Assembly (NCBI GenBank): GCA_030587405.1
Contig: JAUQZD010000023.1
Location: forward strand, 1-26,998
Reading direction: 5' to 3'
From: Candidatus Freyrarchaeum guaymasense
GTDB taxonomy: Archaea; Asgardarchaeota; Jordarchaeia; Jordarchaeales; Freyrarchaeaceae
DNA: 26,998 bases
Of this stretch, positions 3,444 to 22,871 are shown one piece after another; positions within the stretch are counted from its first letter, which is position 1; every line of letters begins with the position of its first letter. The notes under the pieces were generated by a model that did not search any database, was not told the DNA's origin, and saw only the letters and a program-made list of their open reading frames with translations. The position numbers and the translations under genes are program-made.

Positions 3444-4139
3444 GTGGAGAGAGGATGGTGCCTCTTGAAGGTGACGGAAGACGTGTACTATTATCCCGGT
3501 AAACTTTTCGACTCGAACATCTTCGTCGTCCTAGACCCGGCTAAGGGGAGGTTGATGGTGATAGATACTGGAACTGGAATGTTCTACGATGACTTCAAGA
3601 GGAGGCTCATTAAAGACGGTCTCAACCCCGAGGACATCTCAAAGGTCGTCTTGACGCATGTGCACGTGGACCATAGCGGCGGCCTCGCTCGTATTGCAGA
3701 CGAGTTCTCACCTGAAGTTCTCGTGTTCCATATGGAAGCAGACAGCGTGGAGGAGGGTGGGGATGGCCTCCTCCTGGCTGAAATGTTCAATTTCCCGTTC
3801 ACGCCGACGAAGGTTCACGTCCGCCTCAAAGAAGGCGACACAATACGCTTCGGCAGACTGCTCCTAGAGGTGCTAAACACGCCGGGTCACACCATAGGGT
3901 CGATATGCCTGTACGACCGCGAGAGGAAAATACTGTTCTCGGGCGACACAGTTTTCACCCATGGCTCCTTCGGCAGAGTGGACTTCCCCACGGGGAGCCC
4001 GCAGCAGCTACTGGAATCCTTGGAGCGCCTGAGCAAACTTGACGTCGAATACCTCCTTCCGGGACACCTAGACATTGCAAGGGGGAACGGGTCGGAACAC
4101 ATAAAACTCTCATTAAAGTACGCTAAAGCACTCCTCTGA
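3444..4139 (+). CDS. Metallo-beta-lactamase-fold hydrolase (glyoxalase II-like)
   Basis: This is a single-domain MBL-fold hydrolase of about 231 residues with the full set of metal ligands: HVHVDH (residues about 72-77), the His of PGHTIG, the Asp of SGDTVF and the His of PGHLDIA. This pattern is typical of the glyoxalase II / MBL-hydrolase group, which binds two metal ions and hydrolyses thioesters, phosphodiesters or lactones. The substrate is not deducible. There is no signal peptide, so it is cytoplasmic. The start is uncertain: GTG 3444 fits the promoter geometry, while TTG 3429, TTG 3465 and GTG 3471 are alternatives. The stop is TGA, which shows that TGA also serves as a normal terminator here. 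Confidence 0.85.
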   Translation: MERGWCLLKVTEDVYYYPGKLFDSNIFVVLDPAKGRLMVIDTGTGMFYDDFKRRLIKDGLNPEDISKVVLTHVHVDHSGGLARIADEFSPEVLVFHMEADSVEEGGDGLLLAEMFNFPFTPTKVHVRLKEGDTIRFGRLLLEVLNTPGHTIGSICLYDRERKILFSGDTVFTHGSFGRVDFPTGSPQQLLESLERLSKLDVEYLLPGHLDIARGNGSEHIKLSLKYAKALL

Positions 4140-4170: not shown

Positions 4171-4800
4171 CTAAATTTCCTCTTCCTCCCACTCTAACTC
4201 TTCACCCTCCTCTTCCTCTCTCTCTAAAAGTATAGGCTCCTCCTTCACCATCTGGGGAGTGTACTTCCCCTTGATAACGTACCTGTAAAATATAACTTCG
4301 CCGGCGGTGAGGCTCTTCCTCGTTATCTTAACTATGTCCCCTGGCTTAGCCCCTATAGCCTTGACCGCCGGGTCCGTATCCTTTATCTTTGGGAGTTGAT
4401 ACTCCTTCACGTGGAACGTTTCGAGCAGCCACCTCCTCTCCTCCTCACCCACGATCTCGTGCTTGGGGACTAGCTCATGGTCGAATATGTTGAAGTGTGG
4501 GTAGTCTACTAGCAGCTCGATGCCGCTTTCCTCCGCCAACGCCTCAGCGTTTGGGGTGCTCCTCTTCCCCCCCATGAGAAGCCCCTTATCCGCATTAAAA
4601 CTGCTCATGTTCTCTTTAAGCTCTCGAACGATCGCTGTTCCAACAACCCTAGTGGACGGGACGATCTTGACGACGATCCTCTGCCCTACTCCATCCTTCT
4701 CAACGTCAACCACAAACACCGAGTCCTTAGGCGTCTCTTTCAAATCAACGATTTTATATCCTCTAAGGGTGAGAATAGTCTCGATCTTACTAGCCTCCAC
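4171..4800 (-). CDS. rpoH: RNA polymerase subunit RpoH/Rpb5 with eukaryote-like N-terminal jaw-type domain
   Basis: Residues about 100-180 are an unmistakable RpoH/Rpb5 assembly domain (DHELVPKH, QLPKIKDTDP, GAKPGDIVKITRKS, TAGEVIFYRYV). Most archaeal RpoH proteins consist of that domain alone (about 80 residues). Here about 100 residues precede it (ILTLRGYKIVDLKE, GQRIVVKIVPS, NADKGLLMGGKRSTPNAEAL). They resemble the restriction-endonuclease-like fold that forms the jaw domain of eukaryotic Rpb5, and the expected Glu/Gln of the nuclease motif before the Lys is replaced by Val. Total length, 209 residues, is close to eukaryotic Rpb5 plus an acidic tail (residues about 187-209). GTG 4800 is chosen because AAGGGGGGT sits just upstream. 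The minus-strand TATA is at 4854-4863. The gene stands alone, not beside rpoB. Confidence 0.85.
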   Translation of the reverse strand: MEASKIETILTLRGYKIVDLKETPKDSVFVVDVEKDGVGQRIVVKIVPSTRVVGTAIVRELKENMSSFNADKGLLMGGKRSTPNAEALAEESGIELLVDYPHFNIFDHELVPKHEIVGEEERRWLLETFHVKEYQLPKIKDTDPAVKAIGAKPGDIVKITRKSLTAGEVIFYRYVIKGKYTPQMVKEEPILLEREEEEGEELEWEEEEI

Positions 4801-4853
4801 AAGCAACCCCCCTTGCCAACGTGAAAGCACGCCAACAAAAGCAGAAAGCCGCT

Positions 4854-4863
4854 GTTTAAAAAG
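4854..4863 (-). promoter_or_regulatory. TATA box of the Rpb5-like gene
   Basis: On the minus strand this reads CCTTTTTAAA. It gives a leader of roughly 25-30 nt that carries the strong ribosome binding site before GTG 4800, which supports the shorter start. Confidence 0.45.
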
Positions 4864-5035
4864 GCGATCACAAAAACCCTTAATAACCTTTTCTCTCAAA
4901 ATCCTCATCCCTCACTCCAAACATCTGGAGCACGCTTAAAAAAGCCACTTTCCGCTTTTGCCGTGCCTTCCACCCTTAAGCAACACACACGAACCAAAAT
5001 TGTTATGTGTTGAAAAATGAAAATTTAAGATCAAA

Positions 5036-6999: not shown

Positions 7000-7500
7000 A
7001 TGGAATCCTTCTGGAGTGCTGTGAAGGACATCTTCGACCATAACGTTCTAGACCATTTATCTTCCTACCCCGCTCACTCACCCACAGAGCACGCTAAATT
7101 AGAAGGCTCCGGCCGCTTTGCCCACTCGGTTAGGGTCGGATACTTAAGCTTCGTCCTATCCAAGCTTTTCAGGTGTGACCCCGTGGTCTGTGCGAGGGCA
7201 GGGCTGTTGCACGATGTAGGCTACGACGTCGGAGAAGCAAAAAACCCTCTAAAGCAAGTTGTCCTCCATGCAGGGAGGGGAGCCGCACTAGCTAGAAAGA
7301 TGGGTGAAAGCGCCGGCGTCGTGTCAGCGATAGAATCCCACATGTTCCCTATAGGCAGCCCGCCGAGAACCATCGAAGCGGTGGTCGTATGGCTTGCCGA
7401 CAAGCTGGACGCCGCCCTAGACCTGATCGGCATGTCCCCCATACTGGAAAGCTTCGCATCTAAAATACTGGAGGCCATGATGGTTGGAAGACGTCCCTGA
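7000..7500 (+). CDS. HD-domain phosphohydrolase
   Basis: Residue positions count from ATG 7000, which follows AGGAG at 6991-6995; an upstream GTG cannot be excluded. The protein has the HD superfamily pattern: His42 (RFAHSVRVG), His71-Asp72 (GLLHDVGYD), His90 (VLHAGRG), His114 (ESHMFP) and Asp134 (LADKLDA). This matches the YqeK/HDIG-type metal-dependent phosphohydrolases that cleave nucleotides or phosphodiesters. The 166-residue length is a bare catalytic domain. Its 3' end overlaps the following nucleotidyltransferase gene by 17 nt, so the two are co-translated and probably act on related nucleotide substrates. Confidence 0.85.
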   Translation: MESFWSAVKDIFDHNVLDHLSSYPAHSPTEHAKLEGSGRFAHSVRVGYLSFVLSKLFRCDPVVCARAGLLHDVGYDVGEAKNPLKQVVLHAGRGAALARKMGESAGVVSAIESHMFPIGSPPRTIEAVVVWLADKLDAALDLIGMSPILESFASKILEAMMVGRRP

Positions 7501-16718: not shown

Positions 16719-16843
16719 AGCCCGGTGGTGTAGCCTCCTAGCACGGTTGTGGCTAGGTGGCATAGTGGCCAAGCGCTCCAAGGGGCTACGCATCCGGGGC
16801 TCTGGACCCTGGGACCCAGGTTCGAATCCTGGCCGGGCTACCA
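16719..16843 (+). tRNA. tRNA-Gln (CTG anticodon) interrupted in the D arm, probably by two introns
   Basis: The acceptor AGCCCGG pairs with CCGGGCT, followed by A73 and an encoded CCA. The T arm is CCAGG-TTCGAAT-CCTGG, the anticodon stem CGGGG/CCCTG and the loop CTCTGGA, giving anticodon CTG. The D arm is split. Joining 16719-16733 (ending GTGTAG), 16766-16774 (TGGCCAAGC) and 16792-16843 (starting ATCCGGGG) gives a 76-nt molecule with the usual archaeal tRNA-Gln D arm, GTGTAG-TGGCCAAGCAT. This implies introns of 32 nt (16734-16765) and 17 nt (16775-16791) around a 9-nt exon. Intron 1 folds as CCTAGC/GCTAGG. Direct repeats (TAG; GC) leave each junction uncertain by 2-3 nt. A single 49-nt intron is a less likely alternative. 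Confidence 0.85.
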
Positions 16844-19272: not shown

Positions 19273-20313
19273 CTAGACGATGCGGGGGGGCTTGGAGAAG
19301 TCTGCTCCCGGCGTGTAACCGTACCTCGAAGTGAACATTCTACCTACATGGTAGAACATGAAGGAGAGCGGTATGCTCTTAGGGCATACCTCGTCGCACT
19401 TGCCGCAGCCGACGCACGAATCAGCCATGTGAAGCATCCTAGTGGCTATGAAGAGTGAAGGCGTGTACTCCCTCCTCCTGGAGAGGAGGATGCAGTCCTT
19501 GCAGAAGCACAGGGGGCACGCCCTTATGCATGACCCACACTTAACGCACAGGTTGAGCTGGCTGTTAAACCAGGATAGTCTCTCCTCTTCGGGGGCGGAA
19601 AGCCACCTCTCTCTCTCCTCAACCAGCCACCTCCCCCCTTCCTCATCCAGCCTTCTAATAGCTTCCTCCCTTTCAAGCACGTCTTCGAGGGCTGGCTCCC
19701 CAGCCACCAGCCCCCTACTCCTTAAGTGCATGACGAGGGCGGCTCCCTTCTCCGTTCTCGCCTCCACGATTGGAACCCCCGACTTTGTGAGGAAGCTGAA
19801 CACCACGTCAGCGTAGGGTGGACTGTGAACCTCGCACCTCCTGCAAGCGTCTCTGAGCTCCTCCCTGCTGGGAGGATCGCTGAGGGTGCGTCCAAGCTCC
19901 TCCGGAGGGTGGGCTTCCTCCCTCCTCATGCCCGGACAGTCAAACCCTATAACGTATACGTCGTCTAAGTTTACCTTCCTCCTCTTAGCCAGCTCAACTA
20001 TCGCCCTCGCCTCGCAGGGCTTCACGAGCACGGCAAGCCTCTCCCCCGCCCTTTCCACGAGGGTTTTTGGCGCCGAGCCCAGCTTCTTGTAGCCGTAAAG
20101 TATGATCTGGGCTACAGGGGCCGATGCAGCCTCCTCAAGGCTGGATGAAACGGCAAGTGACGGCTTGCATTCCCCCTCAGCCAGCCGCCCGGTCACCACG
20201 CCGTCAACCCTTCCCTCCTCTAGAAGGTGCCTGAGAGCGTAGCGTATAATCTTGACAGGCTCCTCCCTACCGGTGGCATGGAGCACCACTTCGCCTCTCA
20301 ATCCTTCACCCAT
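19273..20313 (-). CDS. FrhB/FdhB-like flavo-iron-sulfur subunit (F420-type hydrogenase/dehydrogenase beta family)
   Basis: This 346-residue protein has the flavin-binding FrhB/FdhB-like body (LVKPCEARAIVELAKRRKV, VYVIGFDCPGM) and two C-terminal cluster regions. The first is Cys256, Cys259, Cys262 and Cys266 followed by Cys269, Cys271 and Cys274; the second is Cys300, Cys303, Cys306 and Cys310 (CVGCGKCDEVCP). Family members move electrons between F420, NAD(P)H or a dehydrogenase and ferredoxin-type clusters. It is the third gene after hdrA and mvhD, so it probably feeds or drains the HdrA-MvhD unit. The true electron donor cannot be named: no hydrogenase large subunit or FdhA is in the window. 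ATG 20313 follows GAGAGAGG. Confidence 0.85.
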   Translation of the reverse strand: MGEGLRGEVVLHATGREEPVKIIRYALRHLLEEGRVDGVVTGRLAEGECKPSLAVSSSLEEAASAPVAQIILYGYKKLGSAPKTLVERAGERLAVLVKPCEARAIVELAKRRKVNLDDVYVIGFDCPGMRREEAHPPEELGRTLSDPPSREELRDACRRCEVHSPPYADVVFSFLTKSGVPIVEARTEKGAALVMHLRSRGLVAGEPALEDVLEREEAIRRLDEEGGRWLVEERERWLSAPEEERLSWFNSQLNLCVKCGSCIRACPLCFCKDCILLSRRREYTPSLFIATRMLHMADSCVGCGKCDEVCPKSIPLSFMFYHVGRMFTSRYGYTPGADFSKPPRIV

Positions 20314-20394
20314 CCGCTTCCTCTCTCGGGCGGCTTCCGGAGGGCTTCCTCGGGTCCCCCACGCTTCCTGGGGGGGTCGCCTGGGGTCCCCCTT
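20314..20394 (-). other. GC-rich intergenic hairpin region between mvhD and the FrhB-like gene
   Basis: This 81-nt gap is very rich in runs of G and C and can form hairpins such as CCCCCA/TGGGGG around a 7-nt loop. It is where a 3'-UTR selenocysteine insertion element of mvhD would be expected. I could not fit the archaeal SECIS core (GAA bulge, 3 bp, loop, 3 bp, A), so no assignment is made. Confidence 0.35.
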
Positions 20395-20878
20395 TTAAGG
20401 GTTTCCTACCTCAGGCTCATTCGCTTCCCTCTTTAACGGGTTTGGCCCCAGCATCCTCACCTTCTCGCTCATCTCCCTTGCAGCGTCGGCGAAGTACTTG
20501 CCTTCAGCCGAGGAGCAATAGAACATTTTGACCCTCTCCGCACCGACGCCCATGAACTCCAGCATGTCCCGGACCATCTCAACCTGCCTCGAAGCCAGCA
20601 CGTTGCCGTTTTCGAACTCGCACTCCCCGATGTTTCACCCGACGACCATGACCCCGTCGGCTCCCTTCCATAGGGCTCTAGCGATGAGGTCCGCTGAAAC
20701 CCTACCCGTGCATGGAACCCTCACCGGTCTAAGGGTTGCAGGGTACTGAGCCCTGATCGTCCCAGCCATGTCGGCAGCCCCGTACCCTCACTTCTGGAGG
20801 CGTGAAGCGCCTTTTCCAGCAGAGGAACGCGGCTATCTTGACGCCTTTAACCCTTCCAGCGTCTTCCCGTCCCGTCAT
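20395..20878 (-). CDS. mvhD: MvhD/VhuD-like iron-sulfur subunit with two in-frame TGA (probable selenocysteine) codons and a frame change
   Basis: MvhD passes electrons from a hydrogenase or dehydrogenase to HdrA through a [2Fe-2S] cluster. From ATG 20878, 11 nt after hdrA, the protein starts GVKIAAFLCW in one frame. The rest lies in a second frame: QK-TGA-GYGAADMAGT, RVPCTGRVSADLIARAL, DGVMVVG-TGA-NIGECEFENGN and ending near LGPNPL. TGA at 20790-20788 replaces the second Cys of the CxxC-[GS]Y motif. TGA at 20637-20635 replaces the Cys of the GCHxGxC motif. VhuD of methanogens is a known selenoprotein. Joining the frames needs +1 near the AAAA run at 20815-20812; it also leaves about seven extra residues before the first TGA. 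The cause could be an assembly error, a mutation or programmed frameshifting. Confidence 0.75.
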
Positions 20879-20889
20879 GGTTACGCCTC

Positions 20890-22803
20890 CTAGACGAAGA
20901 GGTTGTCGATGTACGCTTCAAGCTGCCGCTCCCTGTAGCGTCTAAGGTGTATCACCTTTGAGGGGCATACCGCCGCGCACTTCCCGCACCCCCTACAGGC
21001 CAGCTCGTTGACGACTGCAACCCCCTCCTCGACGCTCACAGCGTTGTAGGAGCAAACCATTTCGCACATTCCGCAGCCACTGCACCTTTCAGACTCGACG
21101 ACGGCGGTGCCCAGCTCGAACTCGACCTCGCCCGCAGATATCAGGCCTATGACGGATGCGGCCGCCGCTTTACCCTGAGCCACGCTGACGTCTATCGCCT
21201 TCGGTCCCTGAGCGTCTCCGCAGACAAATATTCCACGCTTCTTCGTGTCCGTTGGGGCAAGCCTGGAATGGTACTCCCTTAGGAACCCGTCAGGGCTGCG
21301 TTCAAGCTTGAGCATGTCGGAGATCTCTTTGAGGCCGCTTGACGGGACAACCCCTGTTGACAGGACGACTAGGTCAGCCTCCAGCTCCAAGACCCTCCCG
21401 GAGAGCGTGTCCTCAACCGTCAAGGTGAGGTTTCCCGTTTCAGGGTCTTCAATCACGTCCCCAACCCGTCCCCTCAGAAAGACTACGTCGTGCTCTCTTG
21501 CCTGCATGAAGAACTCCTCGTAGTCCTTACCTGAAGCCCTAATGTCAGTGTAGCACACTATGACCTCGACGTCCCCCAAGTGCTGCTTTAAAAGCATGGC
21601 GTTCTTCAACGCAACCATGCAGCACACGTTTGAGCAGTACTGGTTCTCCTTCAGGCTCCTGAACCCGACGCACTGGATCATAACCACCCTCTTAGGCTTC
21701 CTCCCGTCCGAGGGCCTAACAACCTCCCCTGCGGTTGGCCCGTTAGGTGAGAGCAGCCTTTCAAGCTGGAACTGGGTTATGACGTTAGCGTACCTTCCGT
21801 AGCCGTACTCTCCAACCCTGGGCTCGTAGGCGGCCCCCCCGCAAGCCACGACTATCGCTCCCACCGAAAGGTCGACTACCTCTTCCTCCTGGTTAAAGTC
21901 TATGGCGTCCCGCACGCACGCCTTCTCGCAGAGGCCACACATGATGCACCTGTCCATGTCTATCATGAACGTTGGCGGCACAGCCTGAGGGAAAAACTGG
22001 TAGATCGCCTTCCTCGACCCGAGGCCAAGGTCGAACTCGCTCGGCGCGAAGACCGGGCAGACGTCGGCGCAAGCACCGCATCCCGTGCACGCCTCCTCCC
22101 TCACATACCTCGGCTTCCTCCTCACTCTCACCCTGAAGTCTCCGATGCCCCCCTCCACCGACTCCACTTCGCTGTACGTTAGAAGCTCTATCTCCGGCTT
22201 CCTGGAAACCTCAAGCATCAAGGGGCCGAGGATTCATATGGCGCAGTCGTTGGTTGGGAAGGTCCTGTCCAGCATGGCCATCCTTCCACCTATTGATGGA
22301 GCCTTCTCCACGAGGTACACTTTAAACCCGCTCTCGGCTATTTCAAGGGCAGCCTGCATCCCGCTTATTCCGCCGCCTATCACTAGGGCGCTGGGCTTCA
22401 CCGGTAGGAGGATGCGTGGCACCTCCTCAAGCTCCCTCGCCTTAGCAACCGCAGCCCTAATAAGGTCCTTAGCTATCTCCAGGGCTTCCTCCGGCTCGGA
22501 CACGTGGACGAACGAGTCGTGTTCCCTGATGTTTACGAACTCGAGCATGCTTGGGCTGAGCCCTGCATCGTAAATCACCTTCCTAAACACTGTTTCATGC
22601 GTCTTTGGGGTGCACGCCGCCACGACGACCCTTTCAAGGCCGTGCTCCACTATCTTCGACTTTATTAGTTCTGCCCCGGCGTCGGTGCAGAGCGAGATGT
22701 ACGTTTCAGCGCAAACCACGTCTCTCAGTGTTGCCGCGTAGTCTCTGAGCCTCTCCACGTCTATGACTCCCGCTATGTTCTTGCCGCAGCAGCATACGAA
22801 CAC
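20890..22803 (-). CDS. hdrA: Heterodisulfide reductase subunit A (HdrA) with in-frame TGA, probable selenoprotein
   Basis: HdrA is the FAD-containing core of electron-bifurcating complexes. Read through TGA, this is 637 residues, the normal size. It starts FVCCCGKNIAG and has an FAD site (VIGGGISGMQAALEIAESGF, SIGGRMAMLD). Four ferredoxin-type sites follow: CTGCGACADVCP, CIMCGLCEKACV, CSGCGMCEMVCS and CRGCGKCAAVCP. The TGA at 22236-22234 (residue 190) lies within FPTNDCAI-TGA-ILGP, where the family has a conserved cluster-binding Cys that is selenocysteine in some methanogen HdrA proteins. No frameshift or other lesion is seen on either side. The start is GTG 22803; an ATT four codons upstream would restore the common PRIG N terminus. 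No hdrB or hdrC is adjacent. Confidence 0.9.
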
Positions 22804-22871
22804 TCCAATGCGAGGAATACTTTAAACCCCCTTCTCCTCCGTCAACACCTCCATTCAACAGCTTCCTCCTT

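Follow-up and report, generated by a model that had tools for sequence, protein, structure and literature searches.

A predicted bulge-helix-bulge intron adjoining a probable selenocysteine codon in the mvhD gene of an Asgard archaeon

The window analysed in this study, a stretch of DNA of 26,998 nucleotides, carries on its minus strand an hdrA gene, followed by mvhD and by a gene for a FrhB/FdhB-like protein. The hdrA frame contains a TGA codon, which a sequence-only reading of this DNA had proposed to specify selenocysteine (Sec). The hdrA gene, its TGA codon and the gene after mvhD lie as follows:

20890..22818, minus strand: hdrA coding region, start at ATT (22818-22816) or GTG (22803-22801), stop at TAG (20892-20890)
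22234..22236, minus strand: probable Sec codon TGA of HdrA (DCAI-U-ILGP), residue 195 counted from ATT or 190 from GTG
19273..20313, minus strand: FrhB/FdhB-like protein with a ferredoxin domain, the gene after mvhD on the same strand

As claimed in that reading, positions 22236-22234 of the minus strand read TGA, in the context RTFPTNDCAI-TGA-ILGPLMLEVS, and HdrA sequence runs on both sides in a single open frame. Relatives fetched with the read-through protein provided 60 loci, whose comparison at this position had been suggested as a check. TGA occupies the same codon in 42 of them (L001-L039, L041, L045 and L047) and, because it is shared so widely, is not a chance event. One locus (L046) has TGT at the aligned codon and two of the 42 (L025 and L038) each encode a second HdrA copy with TGT; the motif of the Sec site was not matched in 17 of the 60. 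Among the eight genomes of the class Jordarchaeia used below (G001-G008, of which G001-G004 are the four closest to the window), G004, fetched separately from the 60 loci, has the HdrA TGA too, and a second HdrA TGA is present in G003 and G004 at an N-terminal CH-U-G. TGA is also the terminal codon of other genes in the window (4137-4139 and 7498-7500), again as claimed. Concerning the start of hdrA, the stretch from the nearest upstream in-frame stop to the RIG motif holds no ATG, GTG or TTG in the window, G001 and G002, an ATG/GTG in G003 and a TTG in G004; an ATT lies two or three codons ahead of RIG in all five. An intron at the HdrA 5' end, further to the one described below, was considered and no case for it was made.

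The closest HdrA relatives, from Candidatus Jordarchaeum and a Jordarchaeia MAG, are 76-78% identical to the window protein. Thirteen of the 18 window proteins compared match within 434-457 kb of contig C1 of G004, in conserved order (identity of 81-85% for EF-2 and 72% for the V-ATPase subunit I homologue); V4R had no match in G004, and four more of the 18 matched weakly elsewhere. Because of this synteny and of the closeness to Ca. Jordarchaeum, the sequence places the organism among the Asgard archaea, of or near the class Jordarchaeia. The same evidence rules out a TACK origin, the case in which the sequence-only reading would have found a Sec system notable; in an Asgard archaeon such a system is expected.

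Sec and splicing machinery was sought in the eight class genomes, that is, in relatives and not in the window's own genome. SepSecS scored over the cut-off in six of the eight (1 of 14 control genomes matched) and EFSec/SelB in five (14 of 14 controls matched, 2 of them over the cut-off). PSTK-like genes were full-length in seven of the eight, all under the curated cut-off (9 of 14 controls matched), and the SelD family, sought in G004, was matched there after joining across an insert. The search for this machinery had been put forward as a check on the Sec proposal: in the relatives it gave SepSecS and EFSec matches over the cut-off, and no genome of the eight exceeded the cut-off of the tRNA-Sec model RF01852, which is uninformative here as it matched all 14 controls. 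Locus L099 of G008 contains GGACTTCAAATCC, which we take to be a Sec-type anticodon arm; a search of G004 for the string GGACTTCAAATCC did not find it. With TGA at a cysteine site in 42 of 60 loci and Sec genes in the closest genomes, the best reading of the HdrA TGA is that it very probably encodes selenocysteine, in support of the initial claim. Sec machinery together with Sec-HdrA, Sec-MvhD and Sec-Prx has been reported for Jordarchaeia (PMC9723677, the portion available), and Asgard selenoproteins are treated in PMC11227280. As Sec-HdrA of Jordarchaeia is already in print, the HdrA part of the locus is ordinary.

A SECIS search had also been suggested. It pointed to one hairpin 3' of mvhD:

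20353..20380, minus strand: candidate SECIS hairpin, GACCCCC...GCGTGGGGG, conserved in 5 of 5 loci

The eSECIS-like type I element of Asgard archaea is described with a GA_[G/A]A core, an upper stem of 7-15 bp with at most 2 mismatches and an apical loop of 8-20 nt (PMC11227280, the portion available). The window hairpin has AC where [G/A]A should follow the stem, and we count 7 nt in its loop. The hairpin, although kept in all five loci, resembles the type I element without strictly having its core in the window, and is a candidate only.

The more surprising feature of the locus, absent from the sequence-only reading, lies in mvhD. Downstream of hdrA the mvhD frame is apparently broken after IAAFLC, and we divide the gene as follows:

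20814..20878, minus strand: mvhD exon 1, ATG at 20878-20876
20792..20813, minus strand: predicted bulge-helix-bulge (BHB) intron of 22 nt, within the Lys codon directly before the Sec TGA
20395..20791, minus strand: mvhD exon 2, stop TAA at 20397-20395
20788..20790, minus strand: putative MvhD Sec codon 1, LCWK-U-GYGAADMAG, in frame only once the 22 nt are removed
20635..20637, minus strand: putative MvhD Sec codon 2, VVG-U-NIGEC

Removal of 20792-20813 gives a coding sequence of 462 nt for a 153-residue MvhD with Sec at residues 23 and 74, whereas the unspliced frame comprises 49 residues and then meets TAG at 20731-20729. The joined protein matches the Pfam FlpD profile over positions 1-123 of 123 with 149 bits, and its first TGA sits where Lokiarchaeota have TGA: C[W/L/M]K-U-GYG[A/G][A/G]DMAG is uninterrupted in 24 of 24 Lokiarchaeota/Lokiarchaeia loci, these being the loci in which a script detected a Sec-type mvhD.

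The break is no random error, because G001, G002 and G003 break at the same place. The extra nucleotides at the junction number 22 in the window and in G001-G003 and 21 in G004, so that the length of the insert is free of the reading frame. No insert is present in the Sec-type orthologues of G005-G008 (L069-L072). G001-G004 moreover possess a Sec-type mvhD paralogue without the insert (L078, L077, L079 and L093), in which TGY TGG AAG TGA GGC TAY GGY equals the predicted joined TGC TGG AAG TGA GGG TAC GGG save for third letters. We also scanned 227 Asgard genomes with one spelling of the Sec-type junction allowing a gap, a search that misses other spellings. The pattern occurred at 27 places in 25 genomes and, by our reading, contained an insert only in G001-G004, the rest being uninterrupted or chance matches. 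The Cys-type junction pattern occurred at 8 places in 7 genomes; six were read as uninterrupted and two, both in G008, as inserts. These two belong to Cys-type mvhD paralogues, each with a 31-nt BHB insert in the Asn codon of CN|WC.

The insert and its flanks were folded for the window and G001-G003, and G004 was placed by alignment. The predicted fold has these parts:

20786..20825, minus strand: whole mvhD BHB fold, relaxed BHB
20825-20822 with 20789-20786, minus strand: outer helix, CCUC/GAGG
20819-20816 with 20797-20794, minus strand: central 4-bp helix, CUGG with CCAG, CUGG or CCGG over the five sequences
20815-20813, minus strand: 5' bulge of 3 nt, AAA
20812-20808 with 20802-20798, minus strand: inner stem, 4-6 bp across sequences
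20793-20790, minus strand: 3' bulge side, AA(A/G)U facing UG in a 2x4 internal loop

As modelled, the BHB is relaxed: its 5' bulge has 3 nt, but its 3' side is a 2x4 internal loop. U20798 of the window has two possible partners, A20815 and A20812; the minimum-energy fold takes A20815, and this register (central helix of 5 bp, inner stem of 4 bp) is equivalent to the 4-bp one. The ends of the insert are the cut points of the BHB, between the 2nd and 3rd bulge nucleotides, and its removal restores exactly a conserved protein that has intron-less homologues. By the rule of Yokobori et al. (PMC2738675, in part), cleavage follows the second bulge residue and precedes the third, which leads to the same border that restores MvhD. 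Over the five sequences, 64 of 64 pair cells hold standard pairs, compared with 45-60% for slid versions of the fold. One pair changes from G-C to A-U and three others show wobble changes that preserve pairing; covariation is weak at n=5, being reached by 90 of 500 shuffles. When the letters of the insert were shuffled 200000 times, the window gave a BHB with the right ends 43 times, and the five mvhD cases gave one 43-237 times.

We asked whether other genes of the relatives are interrupted in a like manner. All 12 Asgard genomes in which the cbf5 junction was read have an insert there. In the eight class genomes it measures 29-35 nt and splits the Asp codon of GHAGTLD between its letters 1 and 2. 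Four genomes outside the class (G009, G160, G166 and G176), selected because their cbf5 match started late or contained a stop, all have inserts of 30-41 nt at the same point in the Asp codon of GH[A/G]GTLD; the view that the insert is confined to the class is therefore wrong. A cbf5 match was obtained in 213 of the 227 Asgard genomes; among the matches listed, most start at query residue 2-5 and therefore run through the junction. Five more genomes outside the class (G016, G037, G074, G076 and G165) gave two split cbf5 matches, with a best E of 1e-49 or weaker. The crenarchaeal cbf5 intron has been assigned to the catalytic Asp codon, between the same letters (PMC2738675, in part). By their letters, the class genomes have a central helix of CACU with AGUG or GGUG, 3-nt bulges AGA and AAA and an outer helix GGGA/UCCC or near variants. 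Central helices outside the class are CACU/AGUG, CUCU/AGAG and CUUU/GAAG, and over the 12 genomes, with CACU/(A,G)GUG, CUCU/AGAG and CUUU/GAAG, both sides of the helix change. Unconstrained folding gave a clear BHB in G006-G008, nearly one in G005 and part of one in G002; the minimum-energy fold did not show it in G001, G003 and G004. Outside the class it appeared in G160 and G176, not in G009 and G166. Within the GHVD Asp codon of EF-2, 29 nt are inserted in G001, G003 and G004, and none in G002 or the window; the EF-2 match is uninterrupted in G006-G008, and G005 has no match at the cut-off. The unconstrained EF-2 fold shows the central helix and a bulge in G001 and is incomplete in G003 and G004.

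G004 (2.1 Mb, 4 contigs) was then scanned for BHB folds that join two coding stretches. At the lowest threshold the scan returned 74 hits with real pairing, and three alphabets of fake pairing gave 91, 76 and 61; at score 16 the figures were 21 against 14, 14 and 13. Motif scanning alone is thus not discriminating, most hits being gene junctions by our reading, and it was dropped as a detector of BHB introns in G004. The mvhD inserts of the window and G004 were not among its hits, as they do not pass its coding or frame filters (the G004 insert is in frame and has no stop). Run on the window, the same scan gave one hit, near the window end on the minus strand. We selected by hand 8 candidates from G004, namely the 7 coherent-looking ones of 41 hits at score ≥14, and rpl44e; the 41 include cbf5 and EF-2 as well. 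In 6 of the 8 one protein family clearly spans the junction; these six and a seventh, an Fe-S protein, gave the following matches (bits):

selD, G004: TIGR00476, 178, cut-off 125, spans the junction
pcm, G004: TIGR00080, 216, cut-off 159, spans the junction
leuD-type small subunit, G004: TIGR02087, 212, cut-off 109, spans the junction
leuC-type large subunit, fragment, G004: PF00330, 104, cut-off 29, spans the junction
glcD-like FAD enzyme, G004: PF01565, 95, cut-off 26 (NCBIfam under the cut-off for the fragment), spans the junction
rpl44e, G004: PRK05767, 110, cut-off 87, spans the junction
Fe-S protein, G004: Fer4_8, 35, cut-off 27, match begins 4 residues before the junction

The Fe-S case is weak, as its family match begins just 4 residues ahead of the junction, and candidate C1-1035712 was dropped, no family spanning its junction. 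The choice of the real hits was not blind, since joins made with fake pairing did not go through the family search. The further G004 genes are hand-picked and put forward on homology across the junction. With these, nine genes appear interrupted in G004 (mvhD, cbf5, EF-2, selD, pcm, leuC, leuD, rpl44e and the glcD-like gene), with a weaker tenth. The predicted mvhD BHB intron looks like one member of a broader group of Asgard pre-mRNA introns.

All 8 class genomes have the EndA family of tRNA-splicing endonucleases (PF01974) over the cut-off, and 6 of them carry two genes. The second of the G004 copies appears, by eye, to be without the catalytic His, as expected for a heteromeric enzyme. A hetero-oligomeric endonuclease has been linked to relaxed BHB motifs and pre-mRNA introns (PMC2738675, in part). 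The window itself contains a tRNA-like gene with extra sequence:

16719..16840, plus strand: tRNA-like gene, probably Gln with a CUG anticodon; the D-arm region holds additional sequence, probably one or two introns (isotype and borders by our reading)

ARAGORN returned zero tRNAs on the window and Rfam one tRNA gene.

Taking these data together, we hold with high confidence that the locus encodes an Asgard HdrA-MvhD selenoprotein pair with three Sec codons, of which hdrA has one and mvhD the other two, and that a 22-nt BHB intron interrupts the mvhD message and is spliced out. The insert and its flanks in the mvhD transcript would fold like an intron-containing pre-tRNA; a two-subunit tRNA-splicing endonuclease would cut each bulge behind its second nucleotide, the exons would be joined by a ligase, expected to be RtcB, and only then would the frame reach the UGA, to be read as Sec. 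The insert, its conservation and fold, the exact restoration of a conserved protein, intron-less orthologues and paralogues, like inserts in cbf5 and other genes of the relatives and their endonuclease genes are direct results; we infer that the message is in fact cut and joined in the cell, that Sec is incorporated, and which RNA element is the SECIS.

The repeats at the ends of the insert could be read in another way. Identical CTGGAAA repeats flank the hairpin in G001, AA(A/G) Lys codons bound the insert in all five mvhD cases and the G004 leuD insert has CTGGAA at either end, as if the ribosome left the message at a Lys codon, skipped the hairpin and landed on a matching Lys codon without any RNA splicing. 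We find such programmed bypassing unlikely: the second CTGG varies (CTGG, CCGG or CCAG) and always pairs with the first, whereas a landing site would favour identity, and a like insert occurs in the cbf5 gene of the relatives, whose splicing is documented in Crenarchaeota (PMC2738675, in part). It is also conceivable that the insert, which stands directly ahead of a Sec codon and in G004 is a stop-free 21 nt that could encode 7 residues, is never removed and acts as a coding-region SECIS or regulatory element, translated in frame or with a frameshift. But the 22 nt of the window and G001-G003 are untranslatable in frame, the unspliced frame stopping as described above; the insert is lacking in the 24 Lokiarchaeota loci that have the same Sec codon, and like inserts occur in cbf5, EF-2 and rpl44e, which are not selenoprotein genes. 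We regard this reading as extremely improbable.

Two further explanations would remove the phenomenon itself. The mvhD frame is broken in the window, as would be the case for a sequencing or assembly error or a decayed pseudogene; yet insert, position and fold are common to the window and all four closest genomes, the exon codons are conserved and the split Lys codon shows a synonymous change (AAG versus AAA), and we give this explanation practically no credence. The TGA codons, for their part, might not specify Sec and might instead be read through as another amino acid, belong to a changed code, or terminate and so split HdrA and MvhD. The unproven candidate SECIS and a tRNA-Sec that RF01852 does not secure speak for this. 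It is nonetheless very unlikely, given that TGA occurs at sites where homologues have Cys, that HdrA and MvhD are known Sec proteins of Asgard archaea, that genes in the same window end on TGA and that SepSecS, EFSec and PSTK-like genes are present in the relatives.

The preferred reading, a spliced mvhD message with recoded UGA codons, combines features known separately. Proteins, homologous TGA sites and the gene order hdrA to mvhD/frhD are like those of the Asgard Sec-HdrA and Sec-MvhD/VhuD/FrhD already described (PMC9723677 and PMC11227280, the portions available). In contrast to the Sec-MvhD of PMC9723677, whose main text contains neither 'intron' nor 'splicing', the mvhD gene of the window has a BHB insert. 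The crenarchaeal cbf5 intron, which has been linked to a hetero-oligomeric endonuclease, resembles it in interrupting a coding region with a BHB or relaxed BHB that is cut after the 2nd and before the 3rd bulge residue, and the Asgard cbf5 inserts lie at the same site; here, however, the host group is another, several more genes are concerned and the mvhD intron adjoins a recoded Sec codon (PMC2738675, in part). That source, as far as available, describes putative introns in other archaeal protein-coding genes as predicted and none as confirmed. In Freyarchaeia and Atabeyarchaeia, of the same supergroup, introns are present in 92-95% of tRNA genes, many at unusual positions; these are introns of tRNA, and cbf5 and endonuclease do not occur in the available main text (PMC11291895). 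For HVO_1309 of Haloferax volcanii the endonuclease acts on an mRNA, as we propose here, but the BHB is in the 5' untranslated region and not in the coding frame; that report of 2020, in its available part, names the crenarchaeal cbf5 intron as the only reported archaeal mRNA BHB intron besides its own 5'-UTR case (PMC7714728). In the titles, abstract beginnings and passages of the open literature that were read, we found no report of introns in Asgard protein-coding genes.

On balance we favour, with moderate confidence, a broader proposal: that Jordarchaeia, and perhaps some neighbours, splice the pre-mRNA of many genes, with dozens of BHB mini-introns of 21-41 nt gained and lost among close relatives in translation factors, ribosomal proteins, metabolic enzymes, SelD and selenoproteins. 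As the mvhD intron lies against the Sec codon, unspliced messages could not reach the recoded UGA in frame, and the intron may be a checkpoint that couples splicing to Sec decoding; the combination of splicing and UGA recoding within one coding sequence of 462 nt is unusual. The EF-2 insert, present in G001, G003 and G004 and missing from G002, the window and G006-G008, makes intron gain and loss testable. If the proposal is true, genes of this kind, core genes among them, come out truncated or split from automatic annotation. Coding-gene introns, excised by the tRNA-splicing endonuclease, would then be widespread in an archaeal group for the first time, and nine such genes in the four contigs of G004 would alter the view that archaeal messages are essentially free of introns, in the supergroup in which eukaryotes are believed to have their origin.

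In the hdrA genes of the window, G001 and G002, the stretch running from the last in-frame stop to the RIG motif contains no ATG, GTG or TTG; in the corresponding stretch, G003 has an ATG/GTG and G004 a TTG. An ATT lies 2–3 codons upstream of RIG in all five hdrA genes compared (the window, the fetched loci L001, L002 and L003, and G004), and AUU is a possible start codon of hdrA. Window features:

22801-22818, minus strand: candidate hdrA start region
16719-16840, plus strand: tRNA-like gene whose D-arm region is longer by ~45-50 bases
4171-4908, minus strand: fused Rpb5/RpoH domain (RNA polymerase subunit) and Mrr-like restriction endonuclease domain

The hdrA genes of L003 and G004 carry an additional TGA at an N-terminal CH-U-G motif, and in both a single HdrA could possibly contain two selenocysteine (Sec) residues.

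The tRNA-like gene, which ARAGORN did not detect in the window, is probably a tRNA-Gln with a CUG anticodon, its additional D-arm bases probably representing one or two unusually positioned introns. Apparent extra sequence is also present in the D-arm of a tRNA of G008, located ~4 kb from the SepSecS gene:

L099, G008:C38:24422-24540: tRNA with anticodon arm GGACTTCAAATCC, which we take to be Sec-type

As to interrupted coding genes, cbf5 may also be interrupted in G016, G037, G074, G076 and G165, since in each the cbf5 match is split in two, with weaker E-values. The leuD insert (G004:C2 near 145889) and the G001 mvhD insert (L063) have CTGG-AA|...CTGG-AA|A ends in common, and the inserts of the two G008 mvhD paralogues (L251 and L252) are similar to each other. 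These likenesses hint that introns may have been copied from gene to gene.
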